This document shows, piece after piece, positions 3,700 through 34,995 of a DNA stretch of 64,000 nucleotides. The notes beneath the pieces are model-generated. The model was not told where the DNA came from. It worked only from the letters and a program-made list of their open reading frames with translations, and did no database searches. Each line of letters begins with the position of its first letter. Position 1 is the first letter of the stretch. This stretch comes from Bryoerythrophyllum caledonicum (lineage: Eukaryota > Streptophyta > Bryopsida > Pottiales > Pottiaceae): the NCBI GenBank assembly GCA_963971425.1, contig OZ020514.1, positions 17,953,406 through 18,017,405 on the forward strand. The letters are read 5' to 3'. A program made the translations under genes and the position numbers.

Positions 3700-4530
3700 T
3701 AGTTCAACTTTTACTATGCACGGTGCTACTCCATTCATTTGAGATTTTTGATTTCTTTATTATTATAGGTTGTTGCATTTTATGTGCTTTGTAGTCACTA
3801 AATTTGTACTTTGTCTGGCCTATATGAAGCCTTTAAATGGTATTTATGTGTTTTTTTTATCATCTCGCAATTTTTTTGTTTGAATTTTTGATATATAACT
3901 TGCAATTGTTATTATTAATATATATGCATCTCAATCTTATGTGACTTAATTCAGTTCACAATTTCATCAGTTTTAACTTTCACGGCCATAGGTCAAACTT
4001 TGATAGTCAAGTTTCTTATCTTCAATTTTTATTTTGTAATAGAATCCACGGTTATACGTGACCGTTCTTCTTTTTAGAATTCATATTTTTTTCCAAAAAA
4101 TCTTTGCTTCTCTCTCACTTTTCCATGCTCTATGCTCCATGCTCCATGCTCTACGCTCGTGCTTCACACTCACATACTAGCATTCTCCTATTTCGGTTGT
4201 GGCCGGATGGATCTAGGCGTATAGTTCTTAAGCCATATTAGAAGGTTTTTTTGGTACGGCAAATACATTAAGACCTTGGACATTTTGGTGTTGAGCAAAC
4301 TCATTCCATGTTGCACAACTAGAATTGGTGGACCAAAAGGTACCAACTCTTTGCCACTTATTTTTCACAGCAAAAAGTCTGTGATTTCGTTAGACCCAAC
4401 TTCAAGACCATGTCAATAGAGTTGCAACCCTTGCTTGTCGGTCCGTGGATTTTTTCCAGGCCGCTTTTTGTCACCCCAATTAAAGCTATATACGTGTTGG
4501 TGATGGTGGAGCAATTTAGCAAGCTGACCT
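3700..4530. other. Gene-free AT-rich spacer
   Basis: AT-rich sequence with no coding block I can recognise. A short run of near-repeats of the word ATGCTC/ATGCTCC occurs at about 4,126-4,155. The part just upstream of 4,535 should hold the start of the copia Gag, but no Gag motif or 5' LTR can be made out. Confidence 0.5.
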
Positions 4531-4534
4531 CACC

Positions 4535-6429
4535 ATGGAGTTTGTGGTTGCACCGATGATGCACGTAGTATCTAAGCGCAAGGAGAAGGAGGCGCGTGGC
4601 GATGATGTGACCTTAGTATCAAGGGAAAGCAAGAGGGGCAGCTCATCCTCACGTGGCAAGCCCAAGGTATGTAACAATTGTGGCAAACCGGACCATTTTG
4701 CACAAAATACTTCCAGTCAAAAGAATGGGAGCAGGACAAACCTAAACCAAGTAAAGGAGAAGGAGGATGCCAACCATGCCAAGGAGGACAACGACTATGC
4801 ATTTGCATCTCACGATGGACCTCATTCCAAATTCATGTGTAAGTGGATTTTGGATTCGGGCGCCACAAAATACATGATACCACATCGGGCATCATTTCAT
4901 ACGTTTGAGGTAATTCCATCACGCAACGTGCGCTTGAATGATGATAGTGTTGTGGATGCAATTGGATTTGGTGCCATTGTTGTCAAATCGCTCGTGAAGG
5001 GGCGTTTGAAGAGGATGACAATTAGAAATGTCTTTTATGTGCCCAAGTTGCAAGCAAACTTGCTCTCGATGAGCAAGCTTGTGTCAATCAATATGAAGGT
5101 GCAATTCAATGTAGAGGGGTGCTCAATGATGGCACCAAATGGAGATATACGTGCGGTAGCAACTCGTGAAGACAACTTATACCAAGTGGCCTTCACCAAG
5201 GTGTATCAGGCGGATGCGGCAAATTTGGCACAACCATGAAGCAAGAATGGCGCCATGGAGCTTTGGCATGGTCAACTTGGTCATTTGAAGGTTAGGAGCG
5301 TGCATTTGCTTCAAAGCATGGTAAATGGCATGACCTTTGGCAAAGATGAGTCATCTATACCATTTTCTGAAGGGTGTGTGCAAGGCAAGCAACATAGAGC
5401 ATCATTTCCAAGGGATGGAGGGTCTCTTCCACAAAGCCTTTGGAGATTGTACATTCAGATGAGTGCGGCCCCATGAGGACCACGTTGATTGGCGGGGCAA
5501 GGTACTTTGTGACCTTCATTGATGAATTTTCAAGGAAGGTGTGATTGTACACGTTGAAGACAAAGGAAGAGTGCCTTGAGAAGTTGAAGGAGTTCAAGGC
5601 GCTTGCGGAGAAGCAATCGTAGCACATGATTAAGGTGTTTTGGCTCCGACAATGGTGGAGAGTCCATCTCCAAGGCATTTCAAGGCTACTTGAAGCATCA
5701 CGGCATCAAAAGGAAACCATCAACACCGTACACGCTCGAGCAAAACGGAGTGGCCGAGCAAACTATCAGCACCATTGTGGAGATGGCAAGGAGTATGATC
5801 CATGGCCAACGGCTCACGCTTGCTTTTTGGGCAGAAGCGGTGACTAATGGGGTGTACATCTGCAATCAGTGTCTGACAAGGGCGTTTGTCACCATGACAC
5901 CACAAGAGGCTTGGAGCGGCGGCTAGCCATGCATTGCACATATGTGTATGTTTGGATGCATTGCATATGCAATGGTGCGGGATGCATAGAGGGGTAAACT
6001 TGATGCAAAAAACACAGACAATGGATGGTGAAGAAGAAGGTGCAGCTGTTGGGCCTTCAACAACACCTACATCAACATCAAGTAGTGATGAGGATAGTAA
6101 GAACACTTAAGGGCCACGATATCCAAGAAAGGATCGGCGGCCGCCTGGAGAGTTGTTGATGACCGACATCTTGCCGCAACATGAAGTGGAGCAGGCCAAG
6201 GAGGCCACTGTGGAGGATCCATTGAACGTGTGCAAAGCCACGCAATCCGAGGATATGAGCAAGTAGGAGGCGGCCATGCAAGAGGAGTATGACTTGCTCA
6301 TGACAAATAAACTTGGAGGTTGATTCCCCTTCCTAAGGGTCGCAAGAGGGTCAGTTGTAAGTAGGTGTTTTGCACAAAGAAGGATGCTTCGGTTCAAGTT
6401 GTGTGCTACAGCGTACAGTTGGTGGCAAA
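4535..6429 (+). pseudogene. Ty1/copia retrotransposon, 5' part (Gag knuckle, protease, integrase, start of RT)
   Basis: The first 234 codons hold a CCHC-type zinc knuckle (CNNCGKPDHFAQN, with the last Cys lost), then the aspartic protease core WILDSGATKYM at about 4,850. A GAG-pre-integrase segment (ELWHGQLGHLKV) starts at 5,255. The integrase core is broken by stops and frame changes, but its C-terminal part is clear at 5,690-5,926 (STPYTLEQNGVAEQT, with the catalytic-type Glu in NGVAEQT). From 6,240 come an EAAMQEEYDLLMTNK block and the PLPKGRKRVSCK block that begins copia reverse transcriptase. The domain order protease-integrase-RT is diagnostic of Ty1/copia. The frame stops abruptly at 6,429, where a large insertion begins, and the remainder lies at 30,683-31,995. 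Decay is heavy and the element cannot be autonomous. Confidence 0.85.
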
Positions 6430-11012: not shown

Positions 11013-11560
11013 GTTGTCAGGTTCGGCGCGTTGGAGGGTTTGTGGAGGTTGGTTTATGCGTTGTAAACCAACTAGGAGGTTAAACGGCCCAAGGAAGACC
11101 TAGACTCTAGCTCTAGTTAGTAATTAGAGTTAGTATTAGAGTCTTTTGACTTTTAGGGCCTTGGTGGTGTCTTTTGACACCTCATTTGGGACTTGGAGTC
11201 CAAATGACCTCCACGTGTAGTGTGGGGAGACTCACCTTTCTCAAGTTGAGTCTCCCATGTGATGGAGTGAGAGAGTGCGTGCGTGCGTGCACTTCTTAAA
11301 CTTCATTGTTATTATGCGACCATTCTTTAAGAATGGCATTGGCTTGACTATGTGTAGTTTATGAGTATTTTCTACTTGTTTATTACTTGAGAAAGATCAT
11401 CACTAAGATATGAGTGTATTCCTAGTGATTTAGTAACACTTAAAACCCTCAAAATGTTGTGTTTAGGGTGTTTTTGAGCAATGTTTTAGTGCTGAAATTT
11501 TTGTTGCAAAAGCTCAAGCATACTTAGAAGTGAAAGGGATGAATGTTATGGATAAGGTTG
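11013..11560. other. Possible LTR-like segment, no gene
   Basis: Begins TGTTGTCAGGTTCGG and contains CCACGTGTAGTGTGG, a short (GTGC)n run and several CTCATTTGGGACTTGGAGT-like words. The composition resembles a plant LTR, but no second copy exists in the window. The following 11,560-12,300 is GC-richer and contains nothing I can name. Confidence 0.15.
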
Positions 11561-12799
11561 GAAAGAAGTGGCGGAGGATGGCCATATGCCAACCAACATA
11601 GATGAAACTCCGTTGACTTGGAGATTCATCCGTAGTCGGTGGATGAAGCAAGATCCGCTTTGGGCGGACTGTTGACGTTGGAGCTTGCTGGAGGCTGCGT
11701 GCGGCAGACCTGCTTGGTGCGACGTGAGGAGTTGACTAGCGCTGCATGGAAGCGGCTGCGAGGGGCAACGTTGGCGTATCGTTTACAACAAGGAGGGCGT
11801 GGGTGATGCAGCGGACTCGTAGGCTTACAACGGGAGGCGCATGTGCAAGTGGAGCCTCCATAGACGACTCCGAATCTTGCCACGTCCAGCAACGTCTGCA
11901 ATGGTGGTGATAGTGGTTTGTGTATTTTGGTTGCAGGTCAAGAGCAGGAGGCTGCTGGAGGTGTAGCTCGCATGGTGATGCGGGCGTCGATATTGCCGAT
12001 CTTACGGGCTTCCATGTGAAGTGCGCACTCGTGTGAAGTATTGGGCGCGACTGTCACCGTGTGTCGACAACTTGTTTTTTTTTGGGCACCTTTTCCCTGC
12101 TCGCCATCGCTTCCTCTTGGTTTATAATCTCCAAGTTCACATCGTCCTTCGTGGCTAGCCTCAGAGCGTATTGTACCTGAGTGCCAGATACAACAGTCTC
12201 CTAGGAGTGCAGTTCAGTCGTCTTAGAATTATACCAGTTGATCAGGTTCGTGCTGGTTTCAAGTTTACACCAATTTGAATAGGTTGCGCACATGTAATTG
12301 GTGTTCGATCAGACTGCGGGAACTAGGACTGGAGAGGTTGTTGGAATGTGAGCTTGGGAGTTGACGACGTTGAAGTTGACGTTATTAGTGCTAGAGGCGG
12401 AGTGGCCTCGGGTGATTGACGTCGAGACAGGAAGTGAGAGCCTGCTAGGAGAGGCATTGATTTTAGGAGTGAGGTTTGGCGTAGGGTGCGGACGCAGGGT
12501 TGTGTGTGGAAGCGGGGTTGCGGTGTATGCAGACAGGGCGGCGTTGATAGGAGTATGCAATAACCTGCTCTTGTCAGTGCTCGAGGACGCCGTGATTTGT
12601 TGCAAGTTTTCTAGCAAACTTCGTAGCTGCAGCGAGCGAGCAAGAGAGGTAGGCAGGCAGGTGCATTCACAGGTGCAACGACAGTCGAGGTAGAATGCAG
12701 AAGAGTGTTGTGTGCTTATTCGGAGGATTGTTGGTACGGTGCTCATTTGTCCACACAGACACGAGGTGCGAGGTGTGCACAGACACGCATCTCATTTTC

Positions 12800-13770
12800 G
12801 GCCTGTCGATACCCTACTCGGTCTTATTTATAACCTGCCCGACTATACCCTACCCGGCTGCTCCTATTGCTACCCTGCTGCCACTGATACTCGACCGTGG
12901 TAAAGACACCCGGTAGGTGTTGGTACCCGGCAGTTGAGACCCTACTCGGCTAGGGTATGATATATGGCTCTGATATCCGTTTGGTCCCTGATACCAAGAT
13001 ACTGTGTCGATACCCGGATTCTCGACTGATACCCGAATTCTCTTCTGATACCCGGATATTCTTCTGATACCGGGATACTCTTCTGATACCCGGATACTCT
13101 TCTGATGCCCGGATACTCATCTGATACCCGTTTCACCTGCTGATATCCGGTATAGGGTTGGTAAACGGCTGTGGGGTTGATGACCTGTAGTCGGGTTGAG
13201 ATCCTGCAGTCAGGTTGATGACCGGCTGTGGGGGATTGATAACCAACAGAGGTGTTGTTACCCAACATTAGTTTTGATACCCTGTCCGCGTGATATCTGA
13301 TCCGTTTCAGACCCTGTTTGCTGATACCCGGTACCTTGTGGCTGATACCCTCGAGCTGATTAATACCCTCACGTTCATTTGAAGCTCGGTTTGGGTTGAT
13401 CAATGGGTAGGGCTGCTACCTGATACCCTGATCTTAGTTGATATCCGGTGTTGTAGCTGATATCCGGTTCTAGCTAATACCCGGATTGGATATCTATACC
13501 CGCCTGTGCTGCTACCCGGTTGTAAGACTAGTACCCTGGTCGCTTGGTTTATACCTAGCCCCTTGGTTGTTGATCGGCTGTCAGGTTGATGACCTGTAGT
13601 TGGGTTGATAACCGGCAGTCAGGTTGATGACCGGCTGTGGGGGTTGGTAACCGAGCATGGGACTGATGACCGGTAGTAAGAAACACCCGCCTGGTTGCAG
13701 ACACACGGGTTTACGGTATATGCTCAGATTTGCGCACGATACCCGCACTGGGACCGTACGTGTGGTTGCC
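12800..13770. repeat. Degenerate minisatellite of the TGATACCCGG type
   Basis: A tandem array with a unit of about 21 bp (CTGATACCCGGATACTCTTCT), best preserved at 13,005-13,140. It decays on both sides into TGATATCCGG, TGATACCCTG and TTGATGACCGGCTGTGGG variants. Because the unit is a multiple of three it creates long spurious ORFs on the minus strand. It ends about 180 bp before the Gag start of the methyltransferase-bearing gypsy element, so it may be that element's leader or part of its 5' LTR; no matching array exists at the 3' end. Confidence 0.8.
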
Positions 13771-13951
13771 ATACTCGTATGAGGTCAGGAAGGGCTTGCA
13801 TGTGAGGTAATGTGAGAATCAAGGTTTATTATGAGGGGTGATTGCATACACAGCGCCTGATAGGGGGCAAAGTGGACGCTTGAAAGCTTGCGGGGACTCT
13901 ATTAATATGGTTTGAGAATTTTAAGGATATTTTAGACTTGAGTTATGGACC

Positions 13952-14593
13952 ATGGAGGGAAGAGGTAAGTCTAAGAAACCCGAGAGGACTAGTGGGCCGA
14001 AGGTGGAAATTGATGGCGAGGTGTTGGACACCTTGATCGATTGTTTGCAGAGCCTACGAGTGAAAGGTTCCCCAACCACAACAAGTGGTAGCCACGGAGA
14101 CTTTGAGCTTTCATCCATAGCCAAATCTTGCACGGGGCCTCAGAGTTTGCGTAAACTAGGCACGAAGGTGTTGAGTGCGAAATCAATGAAGTATTGGACT
14201 TCACTAGGTGGGGTGCAGAAGATTGGCTCACTTCGGGTGAAGGACGGAATTCTAGCACCTTTGTGCTGTGCACGTGGGAAAGTGAGGGTCAAAGACTTGG
14301 TGATTGGAGGTAAGGCAGTAATTCTTCGAAATTCTGGGTCAAGGTATGGTGTAGAAGTAGAGGATTTCTCTACCGGCATACAGTTACCCACCTTCTCCTT
14401 CATTTTCACCGAGTTCGAGAGTGAAGGGTTCTTATTCCACACTACGTGGCAGTCAGAGGTCAATACGTGGCAAGAGCGTGCCTCGAGTGTGTGGGATATT
14501 CTTACCTTAGAGTTACTGGACTGGGAAGTGACACCTACGATTTATGCTCCAGAGATGAGAGGAACTCATGAGGCCTGGCAATTGTTCGAGTAG
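13952..14593 (+). pseudogene. Gag N-terminal region of the methyltransferase-bearing gypsy element
   Basis: 213 codons starting at ATG 13,952 (MEGRGKSKK). No recognised domain, consistent with a divergent Gag N-terminus. It runs toward a tryptophan-rich segment (EVNTWQERASSVWDIL). Near 14,580 the coding sense moves to another frame (VEHPSSNLDNWKGP), so the apparent stop at 14,591 follows a one-base indel and is probably not an original stop. It is joined to the rest of the element by position and similar codon use. Confidence 0.55.
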
Positions 14594-15063
14594 AGCACCC
14601 AAGTAGCAATCTGGATAACTGGAAGGGTCCCGGTTTTACACGTAGAAACACCCCCTTCTCAGTGGATGCTAGTGAGAGAGTGTTGATAGAAAATTGGAGC
14701 CAACCAGAAGAGGCAGAGGAGAGTGTTTTGCCACTGGTGGAAGAAGAGGAATTTTTAGAAAGCCCGCAAGTGAGTGTTCTGGTCCCAGTTTTACCCACAA
14801 AGTCTTACCAATCATACTTTGATTGGCAGGAGATGGCTTCACCATATAGAGGTGGAGAACGAGGGGTACGGAGATTTTTGGGTGCCAGAGGCACCATCGA
14901 AGTCGATGACTTCAAGAGGGAGTTCACCATGTGGTGTGAACTTCAGAAGTCCCGTAATCCCAACTTCAATCCGTACATGGTGTAGAGAGCGTTATTTGGG
15001 TGTCTAGAGGGAGCTCCACTAGCGGACTACGGAGAAATCGAGGCGGCTCATTTCATCGAAATT
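14584..15063 (+). pseudogene. Gag middle region, in frame with the downstream polyprotein
   Basis: Begins after the indel near 14,580 and runs in the same frame as the long downstream ORF. It includes a Glu-rich stretch (14,700-14,770) and TRD-like basic/acidic segments. A single TAG at 14,983 interrupts it. The frame continues past that stop through LFGCLEGAPLADYGEIEAAH and into the long ORF at 15,064. This is the usual place of a Gag matrix-like region; no specific motif is recognised. Confidence 0.55.
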
Positions 15064-17226
15064 ATGGCCTGGAGGGACTTCTACGCACCGAGCTACGTGG
15101 ACGTGTTTGGTGGAGCACCGAGGGTGACACCCCCACTCTTGTCCAAGGGGAAGATGGAGGAAAGCACGAGCGGAACAAAGGATGTGGAGCAGCCAGAGGT
15201 ACTGGTAAATCATCCACCTCCATTTAATCCCACCGTGGGATTCTTCGTGCAACTTCATAGAGACTACCAAGGACACAGGGTGGATAAGATGAAGGCCCTA
15301 CGTTCCTTCACACATGGAGATGACGAGTCTCAGAGAGAGGCTCATGCGAGATTAAGGAGACTAATCTCAGCCACTCATGGAGTTACAGAACAACAGGCAG
15401 TGCAACATTGGTACAGTATCCTGAACAAGGAGTTGAAAACCTTGGTTCGCAATGAGGCGTTGCAATTGGAAGTACCCACGACACTACAGTTTGTTTTTGA
15501 GACTTCGGAGCGGATTGAGATAAACTTGTTGGAAGAGAAGGCAGCCATGGGATTTTTCAAATGTGAAGAGAAGGTCCTAGAGAAGGTTAAGGTGGCCAAG
15601 GTGGCTATCCCTTCATTTACTGCAGACTCTGGTGCCTTGTGCTTCAAATGTGGGAAGCCTGGACATCAGAGGAAGGATTGCAAGGAAGGTAAGACTTCCA
15701 CACCTCAGACTGGAGGTTTTTGCTTAGGTTGTGGTGCCAAGGGGCATGCAGAGGCGAGCTGCTGGAAGCTTCATCCAGAGTTGAAGCCCACGGGGAGCAA
15801 GGGAGCTAAAGGAGGCAAGGAGAAGGAGTCCAAGACCGTTGGAGGGGAGAAGAAGAGTTGGAAGGCCAAATTTGCGGAGTTGGGAGCCAAAATGGAAGCT
15901 ATGAGTGCCAATACTAATGTGGTAGGTGGCAATCCTCAGGTTACTCCCAGTTTTCATGCAGGGGGCGGATTTAGCTCCGTGGATGATGAGTTTGGAGACT
16001 TCATGTTGAGCGGCATGGCACTTGCCATTAGAGATGGCACACATGAGGCCTATGCTCTCACACGGAGCCATATTCCAATTTCTAAGGATATTCCACGTAG
16101 AGCTACTCCAACTTTAGATCCTCACCATGGAAAGGACAACCAACAAGCCAGGTTGCCACAATCCTTCACGTTAGAAGAGATGGTGCCTACGTCGTCCATG
16201 GTGCTTCCACCACGACCAGTGGCGACATCCACACGAGCCTCACCACGAGCTGGAGGACTCACAGGAGGTTTGGGAGCACTTATGGAGGCAACTACTTCCG
16301 TGTGGAAAGCCTCGTTATTTTCTGCTAAGATGTTGTCACAAGATGGCTTCAGTGTGGGAGAAGTTTTCAAGAATGTAGCCTCAATGTGTGAGTTGGACAA
16401 CTCCACGGGGGTTAATGTCTTGAAGACGGAGATAATCAATGCAGAGGAGAGCCAGAGTGACAACGTAGAGGGGCTGCTTTCAGCAGCCATGCGTGTGAAG
16501 ACAATGGCCGCTAGACCTGCAATTGAGAGATCATCTATTACCCCTGGTGTGGTAGTGGTTGATAATTCCCAAGGTATTTTCCAACTCGTTGGACCTAAGG
16601 GGAAGATATTTGTACCTCGACGTGTGCTTCTGGATTCGGGAGCTCAACCTTTGATGCTGGGAGCGTCTGCTATGGAAGGGTTGGGATTAACTGGGGATAC
16701 TTTGGAGAAGTGTCCCTGGACCATTAGCACATCCATGGGGGGTACAAAGCACGCTACAGGGATCACAAGGGCTGAGTTGGTGTTACAACTCAACCAAAGT
16801 GATGTAGCAGATGCCAGTTCTATGAAGGTGAAGGCGATCGTTACGGAGGCCAAGTCGTATGTTGTCTTGGTGGGCTCAGCGGTACTATACCCTATGGGAT
16901 TCACCTTGGATTTCTGGGAGGAGTTAGCAAGCTATAGACGAGAATGGCAAGCAGGAGATGGGCGGAAGGCTCAGCTGCCAGCTCGATTTGTTCGAGTTCT
17001 TACTAATAACTTTGCTGACGTGTTTGCCCTCTCTGGATTTGATGACCACACTTCAGAGAAAGTGGGTGTCTACACAGGCAATACGAGTGGCGGAGTGGAA
17101 GAAGGTCACCAACTTGGGATTGAAGCGGCGTGGAGTACCACAACCCAGTTGAGGGAGGCCGTGGAGTTAGCAGTGGAAGAAGCATGGCAACACTCTATGC
17201 TACCACAGATGCAACAGGAGCCTTGA
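15064..17226 (+). CDS. Gag capsid / CCHC nucleocapsid / aspartic protease
   Basis: 720 open codons. Residues about 60-175 form a helical Gag capsid-like block (WYSILNKELKTLV). Two CCHC zinc knuckles follow: CFKCGKPGHQRKDC at about 193-206 and CLGCGAKGHAEASC at about 220-233, the RNA-binding part of nucleocapsid. After a long low-complexity linker comes the retroviral-type aspartic protease with VLLDSGAQPLMLG, catalytic Asp at about 524. The first Met is not a real start, because the frame is open upstream to the stop at 14,983. It ends in a single TGA (17,224) and the next ORF lies in the same frame 12 bases on, so protease and methyltransferase were probably contiguous. Confidence 0.85.
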   Translation: MAWRDFYAPSYVDVFGGAPRVTPPLLSKGKMEESTSGTKDVEQPEVLVNHPPPFNPTVGFFVQLHRDYQGHRVDKMKALRSFTHGDDESQREAHARLRRLISATHGVTEQQAVQHWYSILNKELKTLVRNEALQLEVPTTLQFVFETSERIEINLLEEKAAMGFFKCEEKVLEKVKVAKVAIPSFTADSGALCFKCGKPGHQRKDCKEGKTSTPQTGGFCLGCGAKGHAEASCWKLHPELKPTGSKGAKGGKEKESKTVGGEKKSWKAKFAELGAKMEAMSANTNVVGGNPQVTPSFHAGGGFSSVDDEFGDFMLSGMALAIRDGTHEAYALTRSHIPISKDIPRRATPTLDPHHGKDNQQARLPQSFTLEEMVPTSSMVLPPRPVATSTRASPRAGGLTGGLGALMEATTSVWKASLFSAKMLSQDGFSVGEVFKNVASMCELDNSTGVNVLKTEIINAEESQSDNVEGLLSAAMRVKTMAARPAIERSSITPGVVVVDNSQGIFQLVGPKGKIFVPRRVLLDSGAQPLMLGASAMEGLGLTGDTLEKCPWTISTSMGGTKHATGITRAELVLQLNQSDVADASSMKVKAIVTEAKSYVVLVGSAVLYPMGFTLDFWEELASYRREWQAGDGRKAQLPARFVRVLTNNFADVFALSGFDDHTSEKVGVYTGNTSGGVEEGHQLGIEAAWSTTTQLREAVELAVEEAWQHSMLPQMQQEP

Positions 17227-17238
17227 GTTGACCAAGAC

Positions 17239-18282
17239 ATGGGGCCTCCATTAGACACTGCTACCATCCATTGGAAGGCACCAATGGATGGCATCGTATT
17301 GTTGGAGCTCTTTAGAGGAATTGGCATAGGATTGGCAGCTATTTTACAAGCTGGGATCAAAGTTAAGCGTTACATTTACATGGATGTGGATGAAGCAGCA
17401 AAGCATGTGGCCAAGCGTCACACACGGCGACTAAGGACTCAATTTCCAGAGTTGTTGGCCACTAGTGCCATCAAAACCTCCTTCTCTACACTTATGGATG
17501 ATATTTCCTTGTTGTTAGACGATGACATTCACTATGTGGGTCATGTGGACCTTGTCATTGCAGGATGGCCTTGCCAAGGCATGTCTATGGCAGGCAATCA
17601 GAATGGGTTAAAGGATTCCGGTTCTTCCAGGTTTTTGGACATGATTCGAGTGCTTCGGTTGCTTCAGACTTCTCAGAGGCAACCGCCTGGTTACATTGTA
17701 GAAAACGTGCCCGTGGTGAGCAGTTCGAGGTTCAGGACACTCGAGAGTATGCATAGGATCCATCAGACTCTGGGTTTGCCAATGTTAATTGATGCGGCTG
17801 CAGTAGAATCCAGGGCACATAGACCTCGCTTGTGGTGGACAAACCTGGCACCAACAGAGTTGCTACAGTCCGCGGTAGGTCGCATTAAACGCCCAGATGT
17901 GTATGTGAGTGATATTTTGGATCCTCATAGGACACCACGACGCGTGTATTACGATGACCAAGCACCATTAGCGGTGGTTAACCGCAAGGGGGAACCACGT
18001 AGGGCCTTGCCCACGTTGGTTAGTTTTGCACGGTCTTATGCTTTCAAGGATAATGGCCCTGGACTTGTTTGGGATTCATTGTCTCAGGAGATGGTAGAGC
18101 CCAATGCAGATGAGAGAGAGAGAGCCATGGGCTTTCCCACTGGCACCATCGATGTGCCTGGGATTTCAGAACCACTGAGACGGTTTCTACTTGGTCAGGC
18201 AATGGATTTAAATTGCCTGACTTGGATTGTTTCATTAGTGGTTGCTGAACAGAAGCGTTTAGCTTCTAGTTTGACTAGTTAG
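17239..18282 (+). CDS. C5-cytosine DNA methyltransferase domain carried by the gypsy element
   Basis: 347 uninterrupted codons with the full set of C5-MTase motifs. Motif I is ELFRGIGIGLAAI (residues 23-35; AdoMet binding), followed by YIYMDVDE (45-52). Motif IV is GWPCQGMSMAG with catalytic Cys112, and motif VI is YIVENVP with Glu155. Motif VIII is SRAHRPRLWW (191-200). A target-recognition region spans about 200-290, and motifs IX/X are RERAMGFP (293-300) and RRFLLGQAMD (314-323). The layout from motif I (GLAAILQAG, KRYIYMDVDE) and motif X recalls DNMT3/DRM-type enzymes. The catalytic triplet is PCQ, as in DNMT1 and bacterial enzymes, rather than PCN. The reaction would be transfer of methyl from AdoMet to cytosine C5. 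It lies between protease and RT in the same frame as both. Its lack of stops contrasts with the decayed neighbours. It could also be a recently captured, still selected module; family placement needs a tree. Confidence 0.9.
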   Translation: MGPPLDTATIHWKAPMDGIVLLELFRGIGIGLAAILQAGIKVKRYIYMDVDEAAKHVAKRHTRRLRTQFPELLATSAIKTSFSTLMDDISLLLDDDIHYVGHVDLVIAGWPCQGMSMAGNQNGLKDSGSSRFLDMIRVLRLLQTSQRQPPGYIVENVPVVSSSRFRTLESMHRIHQTLGLPMLIDAAAVESRAHRPRLWWTNLAPTELLQSAVGRIKRPDVYVSDILDPHRTPRRVYYDDQAPLAVVNRKGEPRRALPTLVSFARSYAFKDNGPGLVWDSLSQEMVEPNADERERAMGFPTGTIDVPGISEPLRRFLLGQAMDLNCLTWIVSLVVAEQKRLASSLTS

Positions 18283-18636
18283 ATGGGTTATTATGAGTTG
18301 CGGTCGGCAGGAGAACCACTTGCCTCTGTCAGGGTGACAAGCAAGGTGGTTGGGGGCGAGAGGGCCTTTGCAACTCATCCATGGAACATCAGGGATACCG
18401 CAAACATTTTTGCGACCACCAAGGCAACAGATCTTCACTATGGAGGGGAGAACTACAGTGAAGGGAGCAGATTGGCTCACCAGAGGATGGATTTGGAGGA
18501 TGTTGTGGAAAAGATCTTCTTGGAAGAACACACAGTTCTTCACATGGAAGAAATTGACAAACTTGGTCAGTTGGAAGGACTTGGGAGCGTTATTGAGGAG
18601 GAAGGAAGAGAGTCTCCTTCACAGGGGATTCAATAG
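18283..18636 (+). pseudogene. Linker between methyltransferase and reverse transcriptase
   Basis: 117 codons in the frame of the upstream methyltransferase and the downstream RT, bounded by single TAG codons at 18,280 and 18,634. Acidic and hydrophilic (ending EEEGRESPSQGIQ). No motif is recognised; it is probably a spacer or the processed N-terminus of RT. Confidence 0.5.
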
Positions 18637-18645
18637 CAACCAAGG

Positions 18646-19707
18646 GTGGAAAACCCTGCTCCAAAGGAACCGAAGGAGGTGGTGACTAAGGACACTTGGA
18701 AACCAAGAGTAGGCTTGGCGGATGGAGCAGTGGATGTGGAGGAACATGAGTTCCTGAAGGAGTATCTAGATTGTTTTGCTTTCAGTTTATATGATTTGGG
18801 AGTGTTGAAGGGGCAAAAAGTGCGTATTAACTTAACCGACGAAGCACCAATTTATCGAAAGCCATACAAGTGTAGCGACATGGAGCGAATGATGATTCGT
18901 GCTCGCACAGAAGAATTGATGGCTGCAGGGTTGGTGGAGTTGGCTCCCCCAGAGTGTGAGTATGCATCAACAACGGTTATGCCATCGAAGAAGGACATAT
19001 ATGGTAATTGGACTGAGAAACTGATGTATGGTGACTATAGGAGAATTAATAAATTCACTAAGTCAGACCGCTATGCCATGCCAACTCCGGAGGAGAACTT
19101 TGAGGCCATTGGCCATGCCAAGGTATTTAGTACGTTGGATTTACGCTCTGGATACCACCAGATTGGATTGAGAGAGAAAGACAAGGAGAAAACCGCGTTC
19201 TGAGGCATTGACAAAGATGGGAAGGACCGGTTGTTTCAATGGAAGTTTCTACCGTTTGGATTGAAGAATGCTCCAGCAAAATTTCAAAGGGTTATAGACA
19301 GAGTATTCTCGGGGTTGGATTTTGTGAGATGCTATATCGATGACATCATTGTCTTTAGCAGGAATCGAAAGCAACATAGACTACACTTAATGGAGGTTTT
19401 TGCTAGATTGAGGCTTCATGGATTAAAGATGCACCCTGGTAAGTGCAAATTCTACTTTGATCGCATTGAGTATATAGGCCACATGATTTATCCAAGTGGA
19501 TTAGGTGTGGTAGCCAGCAAAGTGGAAGTAGTAATGTCTATTCCTAGACCACGAGATGTTAGTAGGCTGAAAGCATTTCTGGGATTGTGTAACTATTATA
19601 GAAAGTTTGTCAAAACTTTCAGTGCTATTGCCAAGCCATTAACCATGTTGACAAGGAATGATCAACCTTGGATCTGGAGAGATGAGCAAGAGGCGGCCTT
19701 TCAATAA
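18646..19707 (+). pseudogene. Ty3/gypsy reverse transcriptase
   Basis: The fingers/palm start with IYRKPYKCSDMERMMIR and continue through DYRRINKFTKSDRYAMPTPE to FSTLDLRSGYHQI, with the first catalytic Asp (about 19,139). A TGA at 19,201 follows KTAF, where gypsy RTs usually have Arg. The frame then continues unchanged through FQWKFLPFGLKNAPAKFQ to CYIDDIIVFS at about 19,330, with both catalytic Asp present, and on to KAFLGLCNYYRKF. A TAA at 19,705 separates it from RNase H, again without a frame change. All core motifs are readable, so only the stops inactivate it. Confidence 0.9.
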
Positions 19708-20949
19708 TTGAAAGACCGTTTGGCATCAGCACCAATACTTCGGAGGCCTATAGTAGGAAGGACGTACCAGCTACACACAGATTGGAGCTCGTTGGGGATT
19801 GGTGCAGTATTGACGCAAATGGATGATGATGGCAAGGAATTTGTGATTGTGTATGCCAACCGGTCCAACAACAATGTTAAGGCTCAGTATAGTTCGTACG
19901 AGGAGGAATGTTTGGCTGCAATATGGGCAATTGCTCATTTTCGATGTTATCTTTATGGTAATCAATTTCTGTTAGTTACAGATCATCGGCCTTTGAAATG
20001 GTTGATGGAATCTTATAAATTGACAGGAAAATTAGCACGGTGGGCCTTGATGATGATGGAGTATGACTTCAAGGTGGTTCACAGGGCAGGTTTGGTCAAT
20101 ATGGATGCTGATGGCCTTAGCCGCAATCCAATTCCAAACCAAGAGGATGATACAGGTGCTAGGTGGCATACTGAGGGTGAAACTGACCCTTTGCCAGGTT
20201 GGCATTGTTCGGGCTTTCTGGGGATATTGGCAATGTATGGAGACACCACCGGGGAAGCTACTGTGGCCACAATAGATGAGGATGGAGATGAAGAGTCTGG
20301 GGGCGCCAGAGATATCCACGAAGACACGAATGTGATGCAGTTCTTGAAGGATGGAGAAGCAGTGGCTTCATGGTCTCATAAAGAGAGAGATAGGGTTCTA
20401 CAACAAGCTAAGAGGTTTGTGTGGGAGAAGACTCACCTTGTGAGAGTGTGGCCAGATGGTACTAAGAAGGTGGTACCAACTCCTACAGAAAGAGTGAAAC
20501 TGATTAAAGATACATATGAGGACCTTGGACACTTTGGAGTGCGGAGGACTTATAGTCTACTTCAGATTCACTATTGGTGGCGTAGAATGCAATCCGAAGT
20601 GCAAGCTTTAGTGGCCCGGTGTATGGTCTATGACCGGGTACGAGCGTCTTTTAACGCTCCAATGCCTCAGTCACAATCTTTGCCAATTATGGGCTTAGGA
20701 TATAGATGGAGCTTGGATTTTGCAGGTCCATTGTCAGTGACACCTCGACACAATAAGTATGTGTTGGTAATCATCGAGCATTTCTCAAAATGGATAGAGT
20801 TAGTGGCATTACCTGATAAGTTCAATGAGGGAGCCGCTTATTCATTTCTTGACCGTGTTCTGAGTCGTTTTGGAGCTCCAGCAGAGGTACTCATAGACCA
20901 AGGTAGAGAGTTTTGGGTGAGTTTCAAACGTTGTGTGAGCAAGCGATGA
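19708..20949 (+). pseudogene. RNase H and integrase N-terminal/core domains
   Basis: RNase H: the acidic set appears in order as HTDWSSLGIGAVL, SSYEEECLAAIWAIAHF, LLVTDHRPLKWLM and NMDADGLSRNP. Integrase: the HHCC finger is HFGVRRTYSLLQIHYWW...ARCMVYDR, where the last Cys is Tyr, a probable G-to-A change. The core begins WSLDFAGPL (first Asp) and reaches VLIDQGREF (second Asp). Near 20,910 a small indel throws the frame out, so this ORF ends early at 20,947. The integrase continues in another frame. Confidence 0.85.
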
Positions 20950-21410
20950 TTGATCATCGCACTACTTCGAGGAATCACTCCGAAGCAGATGGATTGGCGG
21001 TGCGCATGGTGCAAACTGTTAAGAGGGGGCTCCGGAAGTTTAGCTTGAAGTAAGGACACCACCAAGATTGGGATTTGCACCTACCATGGACAGCAATGGG
21101 CTATCGGTTCAGCAAACACGCATCCTTAGCGTCTTTTTCACCTTACTATCTATTGTTTGGAAGGCACCCGGTTTTACCGAAGGCCATTCAAGCAGATGCT
21201 GACACCGTGTTGGCTAACATGGACAATCCAGACATGTGGGCTCAAGTATGTGAGCAACGTGTAGATTTGTTCAAAAGGGTGATGTCTATGGCATTGGAGA
21301 ACCTCTCCATTGCTCAACATCGGGATACATTGCGCTATGCTACAATACGGGGAGGCGGTTATCGACCGCAGGTGCGGCGTTTCATGCCTGGAGACTATGT
21401 GTATTTGTAG
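20912..21410 (+). pseudogene. Integrase core, C-terminal part
   Basis: After the indel near 20,910 the coding frame resumes as LGEFQTLCEQAMIDHRTTS, then NHSEADGLAVRMVQTVKRGLR. In relatives the catalytic Glu lies in ADGLAE. Here the residue is Val (GTG), while the related copy at 33.2-33.5 kb keeps ADNLAE, so this integrase probably lost its catalytic Glu. A TAA lies at 21,051. The frame then continues through the usual GYRFSKHASLASFSPYYLLFGRHPVLP segment and FMPGDYVYL to the TAG at 21,408. Confidence 0.8.
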
Positions 21411-21761
21411 CAAGCAGCGCCCTCTACCTTGGATGTGACAGTAGGAAGGGTAATCTTGGAAGTTCGTGAGGTGAAGGACTCAGGAGTGTTAGTGTTGGAG
21501 GATCGTGATGGCAAGAAGTGGAAGGATCACACACGTAATTGTGCACTTTGCCACTTGCCACACATTGATGGGACAATACACCATGGTCTCTCTCACATCT
21601 CTGCTGGATTACGTTGTCGGTTGTGTGGTAGTGCCAAACAAGCAGCCACTATGGTTATTTGTGACTTATGTTCTACGGGGTGGCATTTAGAATGCTTAAC
21701 TCCACCTCTTTTGGAGGTACGAGTGGGTCAATGGTCTTGTCCTGAGTGTTTAGCACGTTGA
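21411..21761 (+). pseudogene. Integrase C-terminal tail ending in a PHD zinc finger
   Basis: In frame with the integrase across the stop at 21,408. The first about 60 residues form an SH3-like tail (VILEVREVKDSGVLVLEDRDG), then RNCALCHLPHIDG, shared with the gypsy copy at 32.4-35.0 kb. The last about 50 residues are a complete C4HC3 PHD finger: CRLC, then C-x2-C in VICDLC, His-x2-Cys in GWHLEC, LTPPL, and the final W-x-C-x2-C in QWSCPEC. It ends naturally at TGA 21,759. PHD fingers commonly bind histone H3 tails. Some retroelements carry integrase C-terminal chromodomains for targeting, so a targeting or tethering role is plausible but inferred. The related copy shows no PHD finger. Confidence 0.85.
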
Positions 21762-21959
21762 GGGTCTGAGTAGACAAAGTCTAGCATTAAAAATATATTG
21801 AAGGCGATTAACGATGGGGCTCTACTTGCACCTGGCCTGCCCTTTGTTTGTTCAGTCTTTTAGCATCTTTTTATGTGGATCACATTGGTTCTATGGTTCT
21901 GAGAGGTTTTCATTCGCGGTTATCATTCACTTTATATAAACTGTGTGGTTCATCGGTGT

Positions 21960-22005
21960 GAAAGGGGCTTCAGCACGGGCGAAGGGGGCGAGTAAAGGGG
22001 TACTT
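21960..22005 (+). promoter_or_regulatory. Candidate polypurine tract of the methyltransferase-bearing gypsy element
   Basis: GCGAAGGGGGCGAGTAAAGGGG (about 21,980-22,001), purine-rich and 0.2 kb after the integrase stop, at the position expected for plus-strand priming. The downstream sequence should begin the 3' LTR, but no matching 5' copy was found. Confidence 0.35.
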
Positions 22006-22009
22006 GGAG

Positions 22010-23200
22010 ACCGCTTATTATTTCTTGGTGTACGAGGTTATGGGCCATTTATTTCTTTTCCCTAAGTCTGGATTGCTGAAAGTGTGTAAGTGTGTATTGT
22101 ACTATTGTTTGATAGAGGTAACGGTGGTGGTTATGACACCGTTACTCTCGAGTTGTCTCTGACTGTGCGCTCTCACCTGATTAGCACAATGTTATCTTGG
22201 CACGATGCGGTAGTGCACGACATTGTTTCCAAATCCTCGTACTGTTTTCGTCAATATTGAAGTGATGCAAGACCATCATGTCAATCATTGTACAATGGAC
22301 TTTTTTTTGTGATTTTATATATCTTCATTTCTTATGTATGCAATAGAACTGATTATTTGATTTTATTTCTTAATTTGTATTTGAAATAATTAATTTGAAA
22401 ATGGATAACACAAGATTTGCAAATGACATGTGCATAATTATCGGCATTGGTCATGACGTGTGCAATTTTGGGTTGCTCTACTTCAATTGAGCTCTCATTG
22501 GTGGCATCGCCTTGTTAGTCAAACAAAACCAATCGGCACTAGGTACTGTCCATGAGTTGGTTATCCATGGCATGTCTTCTCCCTTTTACTCACTCTCACT
22601 TGTGGCTTTAGACAAAGGAGGGCACTAAATCTCACCTACTCTATACTTTGGTTATGGGCTCCCATGGTTTTTGGGCTTTTTAATTCTATATCAATTCTAG
22701 ATCTTTGAGATTAGATTTGAAAAAATATTTGTTGAGTTTCAACTTCTAAATTCCGCATCTTCTACATAAATGTTTGTGACATACAATGTCATTTGAGTCC
22801 TGAACTAGCTTAAGTGATCAGAATTGGGTGCCTCTAACTTACCTTACTAGGAATGGAATGTCCTCCGAAGCGATAAACCTCCCCACTCACATTGAAGACA
22901 TGCAGACCCCTTAAGCAAGAAACCATTGGTGCGAGGTGGGGCCAAAATTCCCGTATTATTTTATACTTGATAAGTAATATTCATAATTAAAAGATGTTTT
23001 AGTGCATGCCTAGGATCTTCAAAAGATGAGCATCAAATCTTGAAGACATTCTTCTGTGCAGCATTTAACGTGCCTGAATTTCCAGATTTAGATTGCACGT
23101 GTGATGTTCTTGAACCCAAAAAGGAAAGTTGCAAAACTACTTCCACCCTACACCTTTGGGTTGCAAAAGGATTCAAAGGAAAGAGAGGCTTGAGCAGAGG
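22010..23200. other. Gene-free stretch after the gypsy element
   Basis: May include 3' LTR remains of the gypsy element (to about 22,300), then AT-rich sequence. No coding block, inverted repeat or known motif was found. Confidence 0.4.
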
Positions 23201-32445: not shown

Positions 32446-34995
32446 TCTGAGAAGACAATCGCCATGATGATGTAGCTGCAACAATTCTACGCATCCAATC
32501 AAAGATTTTGCCCGTTGCCAAATCAACAAGCGTATACATGAGTAACTAAGAGAGGATAGGTTGAGTGCAATGTGTGCCCTATCCTTAATAGCCTTAGGCA
32601 ACTGTGTTGTCAATCCCTTAGTCAATTCCCACTTTGCCTCTCCTTGAGATAAAACCCAAACTTCCATCTACGTGGTAGGGCACGATACCACTAACATGTC
32701 CGCGAGACATCAAGTCATTTCTTTGAATGAACGTGATACCTGGATCTACGGAGCCATAAATAGTTTAATGGCATGGAGCACAATTTTTAGGATGCTCTTG
32801 ATACTCCTGGCCATCTTTGCCTTACAGCAATAAGATACCAATGGACAATACATCCTTCACGCAAAGAATAGTGCGCCAAACCTTGACATTAAGTGTTGTT
32901 GGTGCCTTACGCTATAGATAAATGTGATCTCCCTTGGAGAATCTTTGCAATTGAGGTTGGTAGGCTGATTGCAAATAAGAGCGTACTACAGTATGTAACT
33001 GTGTTGAACGATGGATAAGTTCTTCATGGCCATCAACATGGTTTGCTTGAAGAGATCTTCTCAATTTTGTAGACCCTAGGTCTACGCCTCTTGATCGTCC
33101 AAATCCATAAGTAGGGCCAAATTTCCTATACGAAATTTGGAAAATTGGCTTCCAACCATTGAACAATTGATATGGGCTGAAAGTAGCCAGTGAAGCCTAC
33201 TGGCTAAATCGTTGCCTCATTGCAATCCATGGAATCATTAAATTCCAATTATAGTGGCCACCATGAAGTTGTCCATACCATCGCAAGCTACGCTTGATAG
33301 TTAAAGCCACAAGCTCTGCCAAATTGTCCGCTTCCAGATGATTGTGAGAGGTGGTACAGTGGTCAACTGAAGCTTTGGTATACAAAGCTACTATAGCACT
33401 AAAGAAATCGCGGCCATGGTCAATCAACTCCTTGACTGGAGCTCCAAAACGTGCAAACACCTAGTCAAGAATTGCCTTGGCTACCAATCCCTAGGAGTTC
33501 GGCAGTAGAGCCACAAACTTGATCCATTGCTTAAGTGCTTCACCATCACCAAAATGTATGTGGCTCCACATGGGGTGATTACAAGTGGTCTGGCAAAATG
33601 TCAAAATCCAAGGACCAACAGTGGCCAAACCCCAATATGGACAAAGGCTGCAACTTTAGTTATAAGGTGTTGAGGTTGGAATGAATTTAATCACACTGTT
33701 CACATTAGAAAACATACACTGCGATCTGTTGATATATGCTCGTCCCCTAGTATAGGCTATGCAACATCAAATGAGTCTATTGCACACCTACGGTGAGTCT
33801 TTATATAATTGATGTACCAACAAAGCCTTCTAATCTAGCCTGAGAACTATGCGCCTATTTCCATTTAGCCACAGCTAAAATAGAAAGTCGTCCTCTTAAT
33901 AGAACCTTACTATTTGGTGTCCAACTCAATCATGCACTACTGCAAAAAAAAGGGAAGTTTCCTACATTGTAGCTTCTGCAAGATTGGACAAACTTTCCAT
34001 GCATCCCTAACAACCTAGGCCTTATCCAACTCTTTATCTATTGCGTGATCGGACAATGTAGATGCAAAGCGAGACATCACTATAAGGTTAGATGTTGCTT
34101 GTCACCCTGGAAGTGACTCTTTGTCACAATCTTCATGCCACCTAGGATCACTTTGATCCTCTCTCAATAGACTTTGACTGCAACACATGCTATCCGCATC
34201 ACAGTTTGTGATGCCGACCCTATGTACAACCTCAAAGTCATACTCCTGAAGCAAGAAAGCCCACCTGGCAAGCTTTCTAGTAAGCTTGTCAGACTCCATG
34301 AGCCACTTCAAAGGCTCATGGTCAGTCACCAACAAAGAGCTTTGCCTATACAAATAGGGAATAAAATGGGCTATGGCCCAAACCGCGGCCAAAGCCTTCC
34401 TCTAATAGGACAAATAGTTGGACTCCGCATTCTTGTTGCTTCTAGAAGCAAACGCCACAACGTACTCCGGCCCTTTCTCATCCTTTTTAATCAAGAAAAC
34501 TCCTAATGCTACAACACTCCAATTTGTGTGCAAGTGGAAAGGTCGTGCAACATCTAGATGCTGCAACACAAGCGCTAAACTAAGCTTTAGCTTCAAAGTA
34601 GCAAAGGCGTGTTGTAGCTCCCGTCTCCAAGTCTATGGCTCATCCTTCTTCATTAATATTGTCAAACGGCTAGGAAATCAAGCTAAGATTCTTGACAAAT
34701 AGGCAATAGTAATTTGCCAAGCCAAGAAAAGCCTTAAGCCGTGACACGCCTATTGGAACCAAAATCTTTTGCAATGCATCTTGTTTGGCCTACTACACGC
34801 AAAGACCTCTTGGAACAATCATATGTCCTATATATGGTAACTAGTAATGGAAGGTCTTGCACTTTCCATGGTGCAAGCGCAATCCCCATTGCCAAAACTT
34901 CTCGAATGCTCCTTCAAAATGCCCTACGCTCCTATATGTTGCTACTAAAAAATGATAACATCATCAATGTAGCAATCGGCAACGACGCTAGTATG
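32440..34995 (-). pseudogene. Truncated Ty3/gypsy fragment (RT end, RNase H, integrase), relative of the methyltransferase-bearing element
   Basis: Minus strand. It begins abruptly inside RT at the CYIDDVIIF site (about 34,985) and runs through a SRLKAFLGLANYY segment. RNase H (34,596-34,102) keeps LVTDHEPLKWLMESDKLT and FEVVHRVG. The integrase (33,460-33,197) keeps LIDHGRDF and EADNLAEL, the catalytic Asp and Glu. The C-terminus (33,166-32,912) ends KGDHIYL. A tail with KNCAPCH (about 32,780) matches the RNCALCH tail of the 13.9-22.0 kb element. Many segments match that element almost residue for residue, so both belong to one lineage. No PHD finger is recognisable downstream. Everything upstream of the YIDD site, including any methyltransferase, is absent. 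Confidence 0.8.

Follow-up and report, generated by a model that had tools for sequence, protein, structure and literature searches.

Can a retrotransposon carry both an enzyme that writes DNA methylation and a domain that reads histone tails, and build the two into its own cycle of expression and integration? A locus of the moss Bryoerythrophyllum caledonicum (Pottiaceae) raises this question. The window, meaning the whole stretch of DNA analysed, comprises 64,000 nucleotides of the forward strand of contig OZ020514.1 (assembly GCA_963971425.1, positions 17,953,406 to 18,017,405). A sequence-only reading had placed in it, at 13952..21761, a Ty3/gypsy retrotransposon with a DNA methyltransferase (DNMT) between protease and reverse transcriptase (RT) and a PHD finger after the integrase, and had proposed that the element brings its own writer and reader. 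The evidence tilts modestly toward a streptophyte Ty3/gypsy-type lineage that stably encodes a DNMT3-type methyltransferase together with a PHD finger and would employ them in the steps proposed below. DNMT-bearing Gypsy elements are a kind known since 2018, while the PHD finger, a leaky stop codon, a second domain order, self-priming and the termini are new traits.

A methyltransferase and a PHD finger in one Gypsy element

Both added domains were confirmed where they had been placed. The DNMT domain (17239..18279, on the + strand like all other parts of the element; frame 17239-18282, 347 amino acids) matches PF00145 with an E value of 7e-11, and the C4HC3 PHD finger (21615..21749) matches PF00628 with an E value of 2.8e-10. 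The other parts are a gag-protease frame (14572..17238, with a zinc knuckle at about 15640-15687), RT (18643..19707, PF00078), RNase H (19708..20090, PF17917 and PF17919) and an integrase with H2C2 and rve parts (20400..21400, PF17921 and PF00665). The order RT-RNase H-integrase with an rve (DDE) integrase is that of Ty3/gypsy, and TG...CA termini with a target duplication of 4-6 bp, another trait of that group, were found as well. No tyrosine recombinase was detected by Pfam in the scanned open reading frames (ORFs) of the window or in the related proteins P0273, P0274 and P0279, where the H2C2 and rve integrase was found, and no chromodomain was detected by Pfam in the window piece or in the same three proteins, where a PHD finger was found instead.

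The element is longer than had been proposed and spans 11015-22222, with ends set by comparison with copies in the same genome and matched to those of the L030/L012 copy. No conventional pair of long terminal repeats (LTRs) was found around 13.9-21.8 kb, and the real ends lie further out. Gag-protease, DNMT and RT do share one frame, as had been claimed, but in the window copy this frame is interrupted by stops at 14983, 17224, 18280, 18634, 19201 and 19705. The PHD finger, described as ending the integrase frame, is present, but the integrase carries a frameshift near 20.9 kb, which puts its end and the PHD in another frame, and a further stop at 21408. Set against nine same-genome copies of the window's subfamily, these stops fall into two kinds: position 18634 is a stop in eight and a gap in one, and the other six positions, including 21408, are sense in 9, 9, 9, 8, 9 and 9 of the nine. 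On this comparison, the stop at 18634 is conserved, whereas 14983 and 17224 in the gag-protease frame, 18280 at the start of the linker behind DNMT, 19201 in RT, 19705 and 21408 are decay. Judged by its sequence, with six or more decay stops and a frameshift, the window copy is dead, which does not hold for the family itself.

The element's enzyme appears to belong to the DNMT3 type. The structure model of a relative 52% identical to the window DNMT matches DNMT3A/3B, and among 68 DNMT domain sequences 100% have the Glu of ENV and 98% the Cys of PCQ/ECQ; a modelled DNMT3 fold with conserved catalytic residues is thereby supported. The polyprotein of this Gypsy element includes a DNMT3-type domain.

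Copies, families and relatives

The assembly searched was the window's own (437,360,962 bases, 894 contigs). A PF00145 profile search gave at least 123 scored matches (1052 candidates), at least one of which, L002, is of another kind, while a search with the window DNMT gave at least 117 scored matches (2125 candidates), the window included, the others being 84-93% identical to it. Judged by these matches, the genome holds over 100 DNMT copies, and many genome copies have stops within DNMT. L002 (G000:C14:16014858-16018817) is a single intronless C5-methyltransferase ORF with a near-full Pfam profile (E 2e-62); it differs from the element DNMT and is either a host gene or a contaminant.

Twenty copies were fetched, all picked for open frames of more than 1100 amino acids and therefore biased toward intact ones. 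The architecture is shared among them, with DNMT in 20/20, RT in 19/20 and PHD in 19/20. In eight of these copies nothing interrupts the frame before the leaky stop or from there to the end of the PHD, one of the eight being truncated on the 5' side where its contig ends; a ninth is likewise uninterrupted with an internal deletion in RT. The genome contains three families: that of the window, a second whose DNMT shares 84-86% identity with that of the window, and a third near L001, to which it is 85-98% identical depending on the domain. L001 (CADCWO010000201.1) is a 9.3-kb contig filed in a cyanobacterial metagenome bin; it carries the same architecture and is probably plant contamination of that bin. 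Another plant-type retrotransposon sequence, P0047, lies in an Obscuribacterales metagenome bin and is also probable contamination. The family is real and conserved and includes recent copies, and a chance insertion of a host gene or an assembly artefact is ruled out by the many copies, L001, the database proteins and the ratios of nonsynonymous to synonymous substitution rates (dN/dS) given below.

Relatives named among the matches listed come from liverworts, mosses and streptophyte algae (Riccia, Calypogeia, Marchantia, Sphagnum, Klebsormidium and Closterium), and no relative of the element was found in the viral contigs and plasmids searched. According to the accessible text of PMC6338049, algae and charophytes have Gypsy and DIRS transposons with DNA methylases, and land plants such as tracheophytes do not. 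The protein sequences from liverworts and mosses extend this range to bryophytes. These occurrences suggest that capture of a DNMT by plant retrotransposons is a long-lived strategy rather than the curiosity of one alga.

Earlier capture of DNMT genes by retrotransposons, which the sequence-only reading had mentioned for charophyte and dinoflagellate elements, is indeed on record for Gypsy elements with the same repeat arrangement. In the available text of PMC5890265 (de Mendoza et al. 2018), KnitGypsy-Dnmt3 of Klebsormidium nitens is a Gypsy element with a Dnmt3-type DNMT and DIRS-like repeats, resembling the window element in the DNMT within a Ty3/gypsy polyprotein, the A-coding-B-A-B repeats and purifying selection on the DNMT. 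In contrast, the main text of that paper does not mention a PHD, target duplications or circles (the strings 'phd', 'target site' and 'circular' occur 0 times), a leaky stop, self-priming and the palindrome are not seen in its available text, and the moss element exceeds 100 copies in its genome. A search of titles and abstract openings in the open-access PMC literature, which leaves absence from print unproven, found no account of a DNMT and a PHD in one element, of a leaky stop between DNMT and RT, of a lineage with DNMT before the integrase, of Tf1-like self-priming with compensatory changes in such elements, or of TGTC...GACA termini with 4-bp duplications and circularly permuted LTR repeats.

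A conserved stop between DNMT and RT

The conserved stop, TAG-CAACCA (18634..18642), follows the linker behind DNMT (18280..18633). TAG-CAACCA or TAG-CAATCA stands at that place in 18 of the 20 copies, one of the others having lost the region and one having CAG. ORF1 of L001, coding for Gag, protease and DNMT, terminates at TAG-CAATCA as well, after which the frame is open across RT, integrase and PHD. The bases surrounding the stop vary between families. UAG-CARYYA is the readthrough context of tobacco mosaic virus, and the element combines this motif with an open frame downstream. Furthermore, 28 DNMT proteins from the database contain neither RT nor integrase, and 24 of these end 68-164 amino acids past the DNMT match, as a leaky stop predicts, although the proteins themselves do not reveal the stop.

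By sequence, the coding part consists of an ORF1 of Gag, protease and DNMT, a UAG-CARYYA stop and then, in frame, RT, RNase H, integrase and PHD. Because the stop lies between DNMT and RT, DNMT falls on the Gag side; it would be produced with Gag, and RT, integrase and PHD would be made only upon readthrough. The earlier idea of one polyprotein with both domains stands insofar as both are stably carried, but a stop of leaky type is retained between DNMT and RT. In the proposed mechanism, this stop would be read through at a low rate, DNMT would be made in Gag amounts, and it would be packed in the particle.

Selection and domain order

Purifying selection is indicated for both domains. Computed on copies picked for open frames, dN/dS of DNMT is 0.04 between subfamilies (dS 1.7, near saturation) and 0.14 and 0.17 within subfamilies, and that of the PHD is 0.08 between subfamilies. 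It is very improbable that the two domains are functionless passengers: a PHD is missing from some relatives and stops inside DNMT are common, but the low ratios, the near-invariant ENV and PCQ/ECQ residues and the C4HC3 spacing, kept in 31 of the 33 collected PHDs (the other two are cut short), disfavour that explanation.

Two domain orders coexist among 77 DNMT proteins. In 48, DNMT precedes RT, as in the window, or follows the protease in a protein lacking RT (29 of the 48 are without RT); in 24, it follows RT or RNase H, with the integrase next in most; the remaining five are too short upstream to be placed, and DNMT precedes the integrase in them. Quick trees of RT and of DNMT each split the two orders (SH-aLRT 100 and 98), with the K. 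nitens protein P0305, which contains DNMT, RT and integrase, falling within the RT tree, and the identities of the two domains are correlated (Spearman 0.77 over 496 pairs from 32 elements, which are not independent). This agreement of trees and identities implies that DNMT travelled with the element and moved within the polyprotein, or was captured twice; the DNMT tree, built without an outgroup DNMT, fits one capture or two equally. SymbioDIRS-Dnmt3 and SymbioLINE-Dnmt, as presented in PMC5890265, are alike in having captured a DNMT, and SymbioDIRS has two coexisting Pol domain orders, but they are tyrosine-recombinase or LINE elements of a dinoflagellate host.

Several observations concern individual gene models. 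P0274 and P0279, both of the second order, have an extra C-terminal stretch that by eye resembles a degenerate methyltransferase and gave no Pfam match. In models P0256, P0261 and P0307, DNMT or the linker runs into RT as though the stop had been spliced out. The Marchantia models Mp_4g09160, Mp_8g17980 and Mp_6g11220 (P0243, P0249 and P0254) are annotated as host proteins and resemble ORF1 of the element. Some bryophyte DNA methyltransferase gene models, such as these three, are transposon proteins, which is a warning for annotation.

Permuted repeats, self-priming and integration

Two repeat units, A and X, delimit the element. In the window copy, A (371 bp, 11015..11385) is about 90% identical to the 5' end of L030 and would comprise promoter, RNA start and U5, and X (21992..22222) ends in GACA. 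Copies start with TGTCAGG or TGTCACG and finish with CACGACA. Form II, in which A is double (A...X-A-X, with an internal X|A junction and the order determined by alignment), accounts for 16 of the 20 copies; Form I (A...X, which begins with A at its 5' end, finishes with X and has no terminal repeat pair) accounts for three of the 20 and for the window copy, and one of the 20 is cut off. The same LTR at both ends was not found in copies resolved at both ends, which are all A...X-A-X or A...X. Exact 4-bp target duplications were found by script in 13 of 15 copies (two 5' ends unresolved) and by eye in one more, in both forms, including all three Form I copies tested. The window copy starts with TGTCAGG and ends with CACGACA, and its flanks, ATGT and TTGT, agree in three of four bases, a decayed duplication at best. 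Paired A units within one copy are 99.4-100% alike (eight copies), while in the window family A units of different copies diverge by up to 6%, which indicates that the pair is remade together in every cycle, like LTRs.

The signals for reverse transcription are arranged around these units. A purine-rich tract precedes X (21977..21991), and a primer binding site directly follows A (11386..11397). The primer site is complementary to 12-13 nt within A, which lie 144-152 nt upstream in the two larger families; in the window copy this self-primer site (11234..11245) has a single mismatch to the 12-mer of other copies, to whose self-primer the window's primer site is complementary. The pair of self-primer and primer site is CTTGAGAAAGAT/ATCTTTCTCAAG in 12 of 13 5' pieces from the two larger families, CTTGACAAAGAT/ATCTTTGTCAAG in L001 and CTTGACAAAGAC/GTCTTTGTCAAG in all three third-family copies. 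That the pairs differ yet stay complementary, through two compensatory changes, argues for Tf1-like self-priming, in a test in which the RNA start itself was not seen. A tRNA primer site was not found, there being no TGG within the first 15 nt past A in the two subfamilies tested. The Tf1/sushi group, including Tcn1 of plants, is alike in having a primer site complementary to its own RNA, as stated in the text available for PMC6317226, but it has conventional LTRs, a chromodomain and no DNMT.

Given a purine tract ahead of X and a primer site behind A, the LTRs expected from ordinary reverse transcription would have the order X-A. All 16 Form II copies keep the palindrome GACAGCTGTC (GACA-GC-TGTC) at X|A. 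The script found the A|X joint in 12 copies, 11 of which agree with the others of their family and one of which has an extra T, and the joint is alike across three third-family copies. By deduction, integrated copies would represent a molecule with X-A LTRs whose ends were joined and which was reopened at X|A. In the mechanism we propose, reverse transcription would give X-A LTRs, the ends of the complementary DNA (cDNA) would then be joined, and the integrase would open this circular or otherwise joined molecule at the palindrome inside the LTR; a one-LTR circle would produce A...X (Form I) and a two-LTR circle A...X-A-X (Form II). That the DDE integrase opens joined cDNA at the intra-LTR palindrome rather than using linear ends, with DNMT made at Gag level marking the cDNA and the PHD reading unmodified H3, is a proposal to which we give slightly less than an even chance.

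Some findings weigh against it. The circle step is deduced from the termini alone, and no circle was observed. An exact 127-nt overlap of the ends of L001 would be given equally by collapsed repeats, and the A|X junction may be nearly constant because it is inherited and not remade. The same constancy fits a scheme in which linear reverse transcription of the PAT/DIRS type remakes the split repeats without a circle and the integrase acts on linear ends, and the A-coding-B-A-B order is indeed that of DIRS elements and KnitGypsy-Dnmt3. Such a linear scheme nonetheless seems somewhat doubtful, as the positions of the purine tract and primer site predict X-A LTRs and Form I with its 4-bp duplications is the product expected of a permuted one-LTR form. 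PAT, Ngaro and DIRS elements have a circular intermediate, a tyrosine recombinase and no target duplication, and although they share the split repeats with the window element, the latter uses a DDE integrase with 4-bp duplications. Two old questions, whether transposons write their own chromatin state and whether an LTR-type integrase can use circular cDNA, become testable in one system.

The PHD finger

By sequence, the PHD matches fingers of CHD4, PHF12, KMT2D, UHRF1, KDM5A/B, PHF21A/BHC80, ATXR5, BAZ2A/B and AIRE, and a tryptophan stands ahead of the last pair in 23 of the 33 collected PHDs. The model of the integrase end is poor overall (mean pLDDT 73, pTM 0.40), with a good PHD part (about 90). 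The Foldseek matches limited to the PHD include UHRF1, BHC80, BAZ2A and ATXR5, and also DPF3 and MOZ, at root-mean-square deviations (rmsd) of 0.7-2.4; the top rows for the integrase-end model (multidomain chains of PHF1 and MTF2) were disregarded, with TM 0.19 and rmsd above 12. The structure titles give complexes with unmodified H3 for UHRF1 and BAZ2A and with acylated H3K14 for DPF3 and MOZ, and most of the remaining matched fingers prefer H3K4me0. The PHD is accordingly predicted, by likeness to known H3-reading fingers, to read a histone tail. At the C-terminus of the integrase, it would bind the unmodified H3 tail (H3K4me0) and direct integration away from active promoters.

This specificity and the generality of the PHD are open to objection on several grounds. 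DPF3 and MOZ, which also match the fold, are acyl-lysine readers and make a preference for H3K4me0 unsure. A PHD was detected in 25 of the 37 DNMT proteins that contain an integrase, comprising 19 of 22 of the second order, all five unplaced ones and only one of ten with the window's order, several of the last being truncated or odd gene models, and P0281, P0286, P0291 and P0296 form one clade with an integrase and no detected PHD. PHDs in the window's order also occur in L001 and in five integrase-PHD proteins without DNMT (P0133, P0150, P0166, P0238 and P0240); of the 120 matches listed in the search for relatives, which are mostly fragments, 5 carry PF00628.

A PHD in a retrotransposon protein has reportedly been described before, by Kapitonov and Jurka in 2003, for CR1-like non-LTR elements. 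These lack an integrase; the PHD is common to both, whereas the element here is of LTR type with an integrase. Chromoviruses likewise place a histone-reader domain at the integrase end, according to the accessible text of PMC6317226 and PMC9033089, but the window element has a PHD in place of the chromodomain, and permuted repeats.

Methylation trace and possible functions of DNMT

A comparison with a single younger copy puts C-to-T (G-to-A) substitutions in the window copy at 47 of 482 CpG (9.8%), 57 of 602 CHG (9.5%) and 154 of 2813 CHH sites (5.5%). This excess at CpG and CHG over CHH resembles the usual silencing by plants and gives no preference to self-methylation confined to CG. In the proposed mechanism, DNMT in the particle would methylate CG of the new cDNA, and copies would reach the genome pre-marked; de novo CG methylation activity is reported for SymbioDIRS-Dnmt3 in the discussion of PMC5890265. 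The excess at CHG alongside CpG counts against this, as the genomic methylation looks host-made.

The same trace bears on a different purpose, in which DNMT pre-silences new copies and so spares the host, the PHD is a general chromatin tether, and the element gains by host survival rather than by evasion. Strong purifying selection on DNMT and an excess suggesting that old copies become methylated agree with such self-restraint, an option that the discussion of PMC5890265 names; it is unlikely, however, given that CHG is affected as much as CpG, pointing to the plant-type machinery of the host, and that, in theory, an element's own gene is only weakly selected for a benefit that goes to the host. 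DNMT could instead guard cDNA, whether in the particle or in the cytoplasm, against a nuclease or deaminase of the host, with the PHD in an unrelated targeting role. The position of DNMT on the Gag side of the stop suits a task in the particle, but we know of no plant nuclease or deaminase from which it would protect cDNA, and the relative at 32726-34980 of the window lacks DNMT, a weak point since that copy is 5'-truncated; we regard this function as no likelier than self-restraint. Protection from editing or degradation is named in the available text of PMC5890265.

The write-and-read idea of the sequence-only reading remains attractive as an inference. The DNMT3 fold, the conserved residues, the PHD, the many copies and purifying selection support a lineage that stably carries a writer-type enzyme and a reader-type finger, but the reader part rests on likeness. 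These traits suggest that DNMT is coupled with a histone reader and that the pair is woven into the way in which the element is expressed and integrates; if this is true, it would be a self-contained write-and-read insertion system, some copies of which have no terminal repeat.

Other features of the window

The leader of the element contains imperfect repeats (12969..13662, +) and an ORF of 213 amino acids (13952..14593, +), whose counterpart in the L030/L012 copy is open, with 88% identity; its second half recurs in four further copies of the two larger families. The ORF had no match in Pfam and NCBIfam searches or in two third-family copies tested, and its assignment to gag is unsupported, as it lies in a different frame and has its own stop. 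No tRNA genes or Rfam families were found within the window. At 32726-34980 (-) lies the decayed, 5'-truncated relative, with RT, RNase H and integrase; no DNMT was found upstream of it, and a PHD is not recognisable. An integrase fragment of the same group occupies 4110-4523 (+) and adjoins a Copia-like ORF at 4535-5239.

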